A DNA stretch of 64,000 nucleotides from Methanomassiliicoccaceae archaeon (GTDB lineage Archaea; Thermoplasmatota; Thermoplasmata; Methanomassiliicoccales; Methanomethylophilaceae): the NCBI GenBank assembly GCA_016281925.1, contig JAEEJP010000010.1, positions 1 to 64,000 on the forward strand, written 5' to 3'. The position numbers and the translations under genes were made by a program. Of the stretch, positions 12,004 through 16,996 are shown piece after piece. The notes beneath the pieces are model-generated. The model had not been told where the DNA came from. It did no database searches and saw only the letters and a list, made by a program, of their open reading frames with translations. Every line of letters begins with the position of its first letter. Position 1 is the stretch's first letter.

Positions 12004-14514
12004 TCAGGCCTCCATGACCAGGACCTTGCCCTGGCCGGAGAAGGTGTTGCCCCTGAGGTTTCCGGCGTCGGCCTTGATCTTGGTGCCGGCCGCATCCTGG
12101 AAGGTGTATCCGTAGAACGCCTTGGAATCGACCTCGGCGAGGGCGTCCCCGAAGGAGACGTCCTGCAGGCTGGTTCCGGTGAACGCGCCGTATCCGATGG
12201 TCTCGGCGGCGCTCAGATCGGCGGAGGCCAGGGCCTTGCAGCTGAAGAAGGCGTGCTTGCCTACTTCGACCACGTTCTCCAAGCTGATTGCGGAAAGGGA
12301 GACGCATCCGCTGAACGCGCTCGTGCCCAGGACGGAGGCGCCGCCGAGGTCCACGGTTTCGAGGGCCTTGCAGCTGGAGAAGGCGTACGATACGATGGCC
12401 GGAGCCCCTTCGAGGGTCACGGACTCCAGAGTCTGGCAGCCGTAGAATGCCTTGAAGGCAATCTCGGAGACGGCCCATTCGAATCCGAGGTAGCTGATGG
12501 ACTCGGGGATTACGAGATCGGACACGGCATCGGCGGCGAATCCGGCCGCGGCGACGGTCTTGGATCCCTCGTTGGCAGTGATCCTGTACTTCACGTCTCC
12601 GTCTATGATGATGCCACCGACACCCGGGATGTAGAGATCAAGATGGCAGGGCACCGTTGAGGTGAACTTGTGGCCGGCCATGGCGGCATCAAGATCCATC
12701 GGATCATCGTTCTCATCATAGAAAGTGCATCCTTCGAATATGTCCGTGCCGATTTCATCGAAGACAGCGTTGAACACGATGTAGTTGAGAGCATAGCATC
12801 CCGCGAAGACGTAATCGCCTATGGAAACTTCGCCGCCAGAGAACTTGAGGCATTCGAGCGTGCTTCCGCGGAAGGCATCATCTCCGATCGAAACGACGGT
12901 GCTCGGAATCTTCGCATAGCGGAAGTATGTGATGTCGCCGCCCGCATAATCCTGCTTCAGAGCGGCTCCGACGTTCTTGTAAGCTCCGGGAGCTATCTCG
13001 GTCACATCAGGTATCACCATCTTCTGCTTGGCGGCGGGGAACCTCAGCAGGACGCTCTGGCCCTTGTCGAAGAGGACCCCCTCTTCGGAGGAGTACGCTC
13101 CGTTGTCCGGGGAGACCTCGATGGATCCCAGATATGGGCTGTCGAAGGCTCCGAGGCCGATGTCGGCGACGGTGCTTCCGATCTCTGCGGATGTGACGGT
13201 GGCGCAATCGGCGAAGGCCCCCTCCGCTATGGACACGGGGACGAACTCAATGCCATCTCCGTACACGACATCCGGAATCGCAATGGATTCAGGCTCCCCG
13301 TCGTATCCGAAGGCGGAGACGGTGCCGCGGTCCTCCAGCACGAGATACAGTACGTTCTCGTAGACGAAGAAGCGCAGGGTCTTGGAAAACGCCGCATAAT
13401 ATGCGATGTCTCTGGTGACATTTTCAAGCTGAGATACAGGCACTCCGGCCTCTTGGTCAGCTTCGGCCGCCCATCCTGCGAAGGAATAATTGTACTGAGC
13501 GTCGCTCGGTTTCGTAGGTTCTTCAGAGTCATAAGATGGCGCGCTTCCATAGGGCACGTTCTCGTCGGTTTCCAATGCGGCAGTGCCGTCCTGAGACATC
13601 CAAGTAACAGTGCAATACTCCGGGATCTCTTCGAACAGCGCTTCGATCGTTGTTGTTTCGGTTATTGTCTGACCGTCTGATACATTGTTCCACTTATAAA
13701 ACTCGAATCCGCCATTGGCTTTTGCTTCGATGGTCTTAGCCGAGATGGTACTTCCATTTTTTACATTGGTCAGAGTGATTATATTATCGGTTATGGTCGC
13801 TGTTGTGTTCGCTTCAATGACGACCGGGGGTATGTGTTCTCCGCCGTCCTCAGGATTGACTGAAAAATGAATGATGAAGTTTATGTCGCTATCAACAACG
13901 GTATATCCGTTCTCATCGAATATGACCTCATGACCTGACATTTCACGGACGTCATTAGGATTCATCCCCTTCCAGTGAGTCTGCAGAGTGCCGTTGTCGG
14001 ATACATACATCTCCTCGATCGGACACTCATTGAAGGCACCAGCTTTTATGTTCTGGATGTCATTGGACATCGTAACCGTTCTGAGACTGACACATCCGTC
14101 AAACGCGTGTTCTCCGATGACATCGAGGTTTTCGGCATCAGAAAAGTCTACTTCTTCAAGATTTACGCAATCGGCGAAAGCATAGCTGCCTACGCAATTC
14201 TTCCAGCCCACATTTCTTTCATGGAACGTACCGGCAAAGACGGCTTTCTTTATCTGATCGCGTATGTCATACCACGGGGGGCTATCGGTCTGGCTGTAGT
14301 TTTCCATGGCAGCAACATTGCTTCCGCCCAGTATCGTCATGATGCCGCCGCCATCCAGACTGTACGTGACGTCGATGCCGCAAGACCCGGATGCAACCAC
14401 GTCGGCATCGGAATCTTCCGGTATCATCGATACCGCAATCGCCGAAACCGCCAGAAGCAGCACCACAAGCGCTATGCTTTTGGCGATTTCTTTCTCCTTT
14501 ACTATTAAATCCAT
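12004..14514 (-). CDS. BspA-like leucine-rich repeat surface protein (tandem paralog)
   Basis: 836 aa; repeats such as ALETVDLGGASVLGTSAFSGCVSL; C-terminal ~350 aa closely resembles the 9424..11547 product. Confidence 0.85.
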   Translation of the reverse strand: MDLIVKEKEIAKSIALVVLLLAVSAIAVSMIPEDSDADVVASGSCGIDVTYSLDGGGIMTILGGSNVAAMENYSQTDSPPWYDIRDQIKKAVFAGTFHERNVGWKNCVGSYAFADCVNLEEVDFSDAENLDVIGEHAFDGCVSLRTVTMSNDIQNIKAGAFNECPIEEMYVSDNGTLQTHWKGMNPNDVREMSGHEVIFDENGYTVVDSDINFIIHFSVNPEDGGEHIPPVVIEANTTATITDNIITLTNVKNGSTISAKTIEAKANGGFEFYKWNNVSDGQTITETTTIEALFEEIPEYCTVTWMSQDGTAALETDENVPYGSAPSYDSEEPTKPSDAQYNYSFAGWAAEADQEAGVPVSQLENVTRDIAYYAAFSKTLRFFVYENVLYLVLEDRGTVSAFGYDGEPESIAIPDVVYGDGIEFVPVSIAEGAFADCATVTSAEIGSTVADIGLGAFDSPYLGSIEVSPDNGAYSSEEGVLFDKGQSVLLRFPAAKQKMVIPDVTEIAPGAYKNVGAALKQDYAGGDITYFRYAKIPSTVVSIGDDAFRGSTLECLKFSGGEVSIGDYVFAGCYALNYIVFNAVFDEIGTDIFEGCTFYDENDDPMDLDAAMAGHKFTSTVPCHLDLYIPGVGGIIIDGDVKYRITANEGSKTVAAAGFAADAVSDLVIPESISYLGFEWAVSEIAFKAFYGCQTLESVTLEGAPAIVSYAFSSCKALETVDLGGASVLGTSAFSGCVSLSAISLENVVEVGKHAFFSCKALASADLSAAETIGYGAFTGTSLQDVSFGDALAEVDSKAFYGYTFQDAAGTKIKADAGNLRGNTFSGQGKVLVMEA

Positions 14515-14776: not shown

Positions 14777-16996
14777 TCACCCTTGGAGCTCTTTCGTCGC
14801 GATCATGAGCTCCCTTTTCCAAGCCGGATCGCTCTTGGCCGCGGTATCTAGAAGATCGCGGGCCACGGAAAGGTCTTTGTCCGCCCCTTTGCCGTAAAGA
14901 TACGCCCTTCCGACGTATCCCATGGCCGCCGGATCCCCCATCTCGACCAGAGGCGCCGCCAGCCGGCACATCTCGGCGCAGGATTCCTGGGTCCCTCTGG
15001 CCCAGAGAAGCTTTATAAGCAGCAGCCTTGAGCCTCTGACCTTGCCCTTCAGCGCCTTCCTCAGATATATCTCGGCCCGATCATGGTTTTTTTCAATGCC
15101 TTTGCCGTTGTAAAGCGCCCTTCCCAGCCAATAGTAGGCAGCGGGATTCTCTTCCGAAGCTTCCTTCTCCGCGATCCGCACAGCCTCTCCGCAGGATTCC
15201 TCGGTGCCTTTCTCCCAGAGCAGGAACATCAGCATGCCGAAGGACTCTCTGTCCCCGGATTCCATAGCCATTCTGGCCATCCTTTCCGCCGATTCCGGAT
15301 CTTTGCTGACATAGGTGCCTTTCATAAGGGCGCCGGCCATGTAGCGCATGCACAGCGCATCCCCTTCCTCGGCGCCTTCCTCTATCAGCTTCATAGCCTT
15401 GGCCATGATGTCCGGGCGGCCGCCTTTCGGAAACAGATCGACGAGATAGCGGGCGGCATCCCTGGAACCCGCCGACATGGCCTCCTCCATGCAGTACAGG
15501 CCGGTCTCGGGATCGGCGATCCAGATGCCCTTGAACTAGCAGAGACCGTAGCGGGCCTGGCAGCCCGGCGCGCCGTTTATCGCAAGCACGCGGACGGAAT
15601 CGGCCATCGCCCTGTGGAACCTCCTGTCCCCCATGCTGTACAGGAAATCGAAATACTCCTCCCTGATCGGCGGGACCCTGTTGTTCTTGGCCACGTCCCT
15701 CATGCATATGTAGGCCTTATCGAGATCCTTCGGAACGCCTTTCCCGAACCTGTACATCCTACCCAGACGGAGCTTGGCCATCCAGTTCCCTTCCTCGGCG
15801 GGCCTTTCGACCAGAGCCAGCATCTTTCCGCAATCCTCAGGGCCTCCGTGCTCCCACAGCATATCGAAGAGGTCGTACGCGGCGGCGGAATAGCCTTCGT
15901 CCATGGCCATCCTCATCCACCTTTCGGCTTCGGCGGCATCTTTCTCACCGAAGATCCCCTCCGCATACAGCTTCCCCATCTCCGACATGGCCTGTGGGAT
16001 GCCCTGGCCGATCATCCTCTCCAGGAGCCCTATCCCTTCCTCCTCCCGGCCCTCGGACATCATCTCCGAATAGCGCTCCAAGGAGTTGTTCACGCTCAGG
16101 ATCTCGCCCGACCTTATGGATGCGAAGGAAGCGCTGTAATCCATGTACAGATCGTCCAGCCGGCGTCTGACGTCAGCGCCCGAGACTATGGCCTCTATGC
16201 AGGACAGCAGATAGCGGTAGTGCTCCTCCAGATAATGCACCGGAAGGAGTCCCCATTTGTGGAACACGTCCGCCATCTGGAACATGGGAGATTCTATGCG
16301 GTAGCATCCGGTCGCCCTCCAGAAATCCCTGTTGAACCTGGCCAGGAACGCGTTCCTGTCCGCCGTCTCCCTCCTGAGGAACTCCTTGGAGCTTCCTTCG
16401 CGGTCCAGGAAAAACTCGGCGTCGTAAGCGCAGTTGAGTATCACCCTGTCCCCATACCTCTCCTTGACGAAAGACACGAGGCCGTCCATCATCTGCCCGT
16501 ATCTGTCCTCCAGATCCTCCGCCTCTATTCTGCGCATGGTATGGGGGACGTTCTTCTCCAGCAGGATCTCGTCGATGCCGAACCTGTATGCGGATTTGGC
16601 CGAGATGTAATCGCAGGTTCTGTCCTCGTATGCTATCTCGCACAGACCGTAGGAATCGGTGCGGCCGTCGATGAGAAGCCATTCCGAGCCCGATTCCCTC
16701 AGATTGCCGAGTATAGTCTTGTTGTAATCGGCCAGCGCCGCTCTCTGGGCTATCCCGGTGGACAGGACCACGCTTTCCGCTTTCAGGAGTCCCATATCCT
16801 CCTGGGTTATTTCCGGGCCGCTGCGCCCGCAGAACTGGGACATGAACGAGCAGGCCTTGTAATAGCGCCCCACCTTCAGGCGGCCGCTTTCCCCGCAGTA
16901 ATCGCTGTAGAAACTGAATATGTCGCGGCTGACGCACACGCCCCATATATCCAATGCCACCGTTCCCTCGCTGCCGGAGGCGCCGTCGCTAGCCAT
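14777..16996 (-). CDS. DUF6270-like N-terminus plus Sel1 repeats, one reading frame with in-frame UAG at 15536..15538
   Basis: ORFs 15536..16996 and 14777..15490 are in the same frame; Sel1 motif runs across the amber codon: CQARYGLC-[UAG]-FKGIWIADPETGLYCMEEAMSAGSRDAARYL. Confidence 0.75.

Follow-up and report, generated by a model that had tools for sequence, protein, structure and literature searches.

Pyrrolysine (Pyl) in proteins other than the methylamine methyltransferases has largely been viewed as a tolerated accident. Heinemann reportedly described it in 2009 in the tRNAHis guanylyltransferase of Methanosarcina, where it was put down to neutral evolution, and Kivenson and colleagues are said to have described in 2025 an archaeal code in which all TAG codons stand for Pyl, so that, in lineages of that sort, any TAG within a frame would encode Pyl.

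One of the nearest known systems is that of Candidatus Methanomethylophilus alvus, of the same archaeal family as the organism studied here, for which 16 non-methyltransferase Pyl proteins have been predicted, one of them a Sel-1 protein of 389 aa (AGI86303.1), and in which 1.6% of stops are TAG (Borrel 2014, PMC4153887, Table 7). The rumen isolate ISO4-H5 is described as having a complete pyl operon and 46 amber-containing genes, many of them housekeeping or hypothetical, in the main text of its report (PMC5011839). The gene presented below shares with the first system the family, an in-frame TAG outside MtmB, MtbB and MttB, a Sel1-type product and low use of TAG as a stop, and with the second, so far as that main text goes, a place among the rumen Methanomassiliicoccales, the full set of pyl genes and the occurrence of amber codons in a number of genes (PMC5011839). 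It is set apart from AGI86303.1, by description rather than by sequence, in encoding 739 aa with a DUF6270 domain, and its TAG position is conserved across species, whereas half of the Ca. M. alvus cases have amber-free homologs (PMC4153887); the main text on ISO4-H5 names no Sel1 protein and does not appear to give site-by-site conservation across species (PMC5011839). The sequence-only reading that drew attention to this locus had pointed to a codon outside the methylamine methyltransferases; to call it unusual there is too strong for this archaeal order (PMC4153887, PMC5011839). The kind is already known, and what the locus adds is one more such protein, with an amber codon strictly conserved in four species.

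The gene lies in the window, by which we mean the whole stretch of 64,000 nucleotides analysed (G000:C29:1-64000, G000 being the host genome, of 1.96 Mb in 122 contigs and 86% complete). Read on the minus strand, 15536-15538 spells TAG, which stands as codon 487 in a single frame of 739 codons (Table 1), with Sel1 sequence on either side. The two open reading frames listed at 15536..16996 and 14777..15490 had been taken to share one frame, with the UAG alone between them and inside a Sel1-repeat protein, and reading of the frame confirms this; the listed start of the second is only its first ATG, 16 codons past the TAG, and the frame is already open directly after that codon. The 252 codons that follow without TAA or TGA have a chance of about 0.007 at the TAA/TGA frequency of the window, the Sel1 match not yet being counted. 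The adjacent gene on the same strand (window 12004-14514, minus, 836 aa), in which no in-frame TAG was flagged, looks like that of a surface protein, its product opening with a hydrophobic stretch that may be a signal or an anchor.

Table 1. Features of the amber-interrupted DUF6270-Sel1 gene, in window positions
Feature	Position	Strand	Description
Full gene including the TAG	14777..16996	minus	739 residues, from ATG at 16996 to TGA at 14777-14779; DUF6270 and Sel1 repeats; length and architecture shared by the orthologs
In-frame TAG, codon 487	15536..15538	minus	Tyr-equivalent site of a Sel1-type repeat; proposed Pyl codon
Part 5' of the TAG, residues 1-486	15539..16996	minus	DUF6270 at 17-255, Sel1-type repeats from about 302
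Part 3' of the TAG, residues 488-739	14780..15535	minus	More Sel1-type repeats; without a conserved restart codon
ARYGLC codons directly before the TAG	15539..15556	minus	ARYGL unchanged in 4/4 orthologs

DUF6270 (PF19786, 58.2 bits against a cutoff of 27.5) and Sel1 (PF08238) are the only domains found in the 739-residue protein, and the MtmB domain (PF05369) was not found in it. Sel1 scores 80.5 bits over the whole protein (Pfam cutoff 30.7), and 39.7 and 55.9 bits when the parts upstream and downstream of the TAG are scored separately, the downstream part alone giving a match at 4.8e-15. Both sides thus pass the cutoff independently, which bears out the suggestion that the Sel1 consensus runs on past the UAG. 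The amber also stands, as had been proposed, for the usual Tyr of the repeat: the LGxxY-type units are spaced by about 71 residues, with Y344, Y415, the TAG at 487, L628 and Y699 at equivalent sites, and with L558 assigned to the series from this spacing and not by motif search. A structure model, built on a three-sequence alignment, gives a continuous solenoid of repeats that starts near residue 302 and reaches the C-terminal end, with block confidences mostly of 75-94, and a predicted helix at 477-489 that runs through residue 487; the DUF6270 portion is modelled at low confidence.

Among 102 genomes of the family, full-length orthologs were found in three besides G000, all of the same genus: G068, G069 and G057, at 69%, 47% and 46% identity, respectively. 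The ortholog in G069 corresponds to public record JAFYAH010000048.1, from sheep rumen, and that in G057 to SUSZ01000017.1, and these two, already known, were the only ones matched in a search of public contigs. TAG occupies the identical codon and alignment column in 4/4 species, the junctions being CQARYGLC-TAG-FKG, CQARYGLC-TAG-IKG, PQARYGLA-TAG-VLG and SKARYGLA-TAG-YLG. Tyr or Phe had been expected at this site in the orthologs; all three have TAG, Tyr being confined to the corresponding position in other repeats. The background against which this codon has been kept is one of extensive change, with all four agreeing at only 77 of 735 aligned codons (8 of 39 for Met and 7 of 12 for Trp) and at 13 of 101 fourfold sites, a neutral tree length of 2.67 substitutions per fourfold site and synonymous sites near saturation. 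The chance that three neutral bases would be kept in all four is about 0.13 cubed, or about 0.002, on the presumption of even neutral rates along the gene. Retention of the TAG by selection is thus supported statistically by the alignment; what is selected may be Pyl chemistry, packing at the site or avoidance of the one-step substitutions available to the codon. Conservation alone would fit Pyl or another residue inserted at UAG, and full or partial readthrough alike. The G069 ortholog has a second in-frame TAG where the other three have Phe or Tyr codons, and the DUF6270-Sel1 paralogs of that genome (loci L011, L020 and L031, the ortholog included) hold two or three further in-frame TAGs.

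The means of decoding UAG are at hand in the same genome, where all of pylTSBCD are present, so that an objection from missing pyl genes falls away. One contig (C94) carries pylT (tRNA-Pyl with a CUA anticodon, CTA in DNA), pylS and the N-terminal half of pylB, a gene cut off by the end of this contig, and another (C8) opens with the C-terminal half of pylB, followed by pylC and pylD. PylS, PylC and PylD score 255.8, 306.8 and 198.5 bits, against NCBIfam cutoffs of 178, 248 and 150, respectively; the two parts of pylB align with positions 6-177 and 193-347 of a profile of 347, each scoring below the cutoff for the full length. MtmB served as a positive control: it occurs twice in every one of six genomes from the genus, each copy with one internal TAG, and the two of G000, which lie elsewhere in the genome, have the internal TAG expected of them.

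Use of TAG was also surveyed over part of two genomes, about 654 kb of G000 being compared with 1.11 Mb of G068 to give 322 ortholog pairs and 110,892 aligned codons; frames were chosen by a coding-score filter, the unfiltered comparison of all frames being swamped by antisense shadow frames. Internal TAGs common to both include those of two MtmB, citrate synthase, a HAD-type hydrolase, an 834-residue Sel1 protein and the DUF6270-Sel1 gene, which is one of several in-frame-TAG genes in G000 and not unique. Other internal TAGs face sense codons, among them GAA (in a tetrapyrrole methylase), CAG, GAT (in an ABC transporter) and TAT (in another Sel1 protein). Terminal TAG is rare: of the ortholog-supported genes, about 308 in each genome, no more than 11 in G000 and 4 in G068 could have it (upper bounds, any TAG near or past the end of an alignment being included, drawn from roughly one third of the first genome and one half of the second). 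The others close with TGA or TAA, TGA being found in 257 and 264, respectively. Internal TAGs that are conserved or aligned with sense codons, together with the rarity of terminal ones, indicate that TAG behaves as a sense codon in G000.

From the sequences at hand, the UAG is very probably read as a sense codon by tRNA-Pyl, giving a full 739-residue protein with Pyl at position 487. The earlier suggestion that UAG is sense here and that the complete protein may be made gains support from the pyl genes and from TAG in 4/4 orthologs. In the mechanism that we propose, tRNA-Pyl (CUA), charged by PylS, would decode the UAG at codon 487, and routine decoding of this kind would yield the full DUF6270-Sel1 protein with Pyl at that position. 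The ancestral residue would have been a Tyr closing the first helix of the Sel1 repeat, an origin suggested by the repeat consensus and by the occurrence of TAG opposite TAT in a different Sel1 protein. A single-base change of TAC or TAT to TAG could then have arisen in a lineage that reads UAG efficiently and seldom needs it as a stop, and purifying selection would later have preserved the residue in four species or more.

It is quite improbable that the UAG acts instead as a partial stop, with a 486-residue form (DUF6270 and the first repeats) made alongside the full Pyl form in a ratio set by Pyl supply, so as to report methylamine status. Such an arrangement would fit the retention of the TAG by selection in four species and the dependence of Pyl supply on the pyl operon, the source of the biosynthesis genes. 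Its short product, however, would break off in mid-repeat, the TAG lying within a predicted helix, and in-frame TAGs in many unrelated genes here point to routine decoding. No dedicated RNA signal was found: RNAalifold, run on the four sequences, revealed no conserved PYLIS-like element 3' of the UAG, its fold having 26 pairs and a covariation term that was unfavourable. A downstream RNA element is not strictly needed for UAG decoding (PMC4153887, citing Longstaff 2007).

Standard gene calling splits the gene, and with an ATG 16 codons past the TAG the codon might be taken for a true stop, the downstream part being a separate gene, or the dead remnant of a split gene or pseudogene. We consider this very improbable in view of the identical arrangement in four species and of purifying selection on the downstream half (dN 0.14 and dS 0.69 against G068, the closest pair). 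A second gene would moreover start in mid-repeat, the first ATG lies at 16, 44, 17 and 8 codons after the TAG in the four orthologs, and no start codon common to all four was found within 40 codons 3' of it. An independent stop or pseudogene was rejected as largely refuted by the orthologs, and so was a recent nonsense mutation, the TAG being at the same codon in orthologs of such divergent identity.

Reading of the UAG by another suppressor or a near-cognate tRNA, with insertion of a standard residue such as Tyr or Gln, would suit the Tyr found at the equivalent site of several other repeats, but tRNA-Pyl is the only tRNA with a CUA anticodon found in the genome. The genome gave 43 tRNA-family matches, with CUA in none of the 42 whose anticodon was called (the remaining one contains an intron, and its anticodon is uncertain), which makes this reading extremely improbable. 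The chance of a sequencing or assembly error at 15536-15538, which the fragmented state of the G000 assembly might suggest and which orthologs with TAC or TAT would have betrayed, is negligible, the same TAG being present in assemblies of four different species, two of them public (SUSZ01000017.1 and JAFYAH010000048.1); its recurrence at one codon in three orthologs, despite near-saturated synonymous sites, rules out error, recent nonsense mutation and pseudogenisation alike.

Decoding by tRNA-Pyl would place the DUF6270-Sel1 protein beside MtmB, MtbB and MttB, for which the genome uses this same machinery to decode UAG as Pyl. In those enzymes Pyl is catalytic, whereas the present protein lacks a methyltransferase domain and residue 487 is a repeat-packing position; a catalytic role is therefore unlikely, and the residue would be structural. 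We see a small chance that Pyl itself has a selected role at the site, for instance in reaction or binding, or as a switch tying the full-length protein to Pyl supply, in a protein that needs Pyl and does not merely tolerate it. The Methanosarcina tRNAHis guanylyltransferase is likewise said to be a Pyl protein unrelated to methylamine use; unlike the codon in that case, the one described here has been kept over a distance that makes chance retention unlikely. Its persistence in four species, despite identities of 46-69% and synonymous sites near saturation, is evidence that such Pyl residues can become entrenched, and the DUF6270-Sel1 protein offers a concrete test case of whether Pyl is merely tolerated or actually needed.

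In these gut methanogens, standard gene calling cuts short the present protein and others, citrate synthase among them. The citrate synthase gene (L074:4284-5693, contig C16 of G000; NF010635, 687.9 bits against a cutoff of 426) has an in-frame TAG at codon 81, which is TAG in 5/6 genomes tested, the sixth having AGG. A HAD-IIA family hydrolase (L066:113-1036, contig C7) has its TAG in the motif GDRLYTDM-TAG-MADCAG, again at the same codon in 5/6 genomes tested with AGG in the sixth, and more distant relatives have GAG, GAA, CAG, AAG, AGG, ATG, GCG or GCC there. TAG has a narrower distribution in the 834-residue Sel1 protein (L079:3072-5573, contig C56), where codon 623 is TAG in G000 and G068, whereas a paralog and other relatives have GAC, CAG or TAC. 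In a further Sel1 protein (L144:6607-8265, contig C21) the TAG stands at the Tyr of LGLLY, and its match in G068, at 42% identity, has TAT. Finally, a TAG common to G000 and G068 at L060:17257-18849 (contig C1) lies about 10 codons ahead of homology to RNA polymerase subunit A'', with high identity on both sides, and may encode Pyl in an N-terminal extension or mark the end of an upstream frame.
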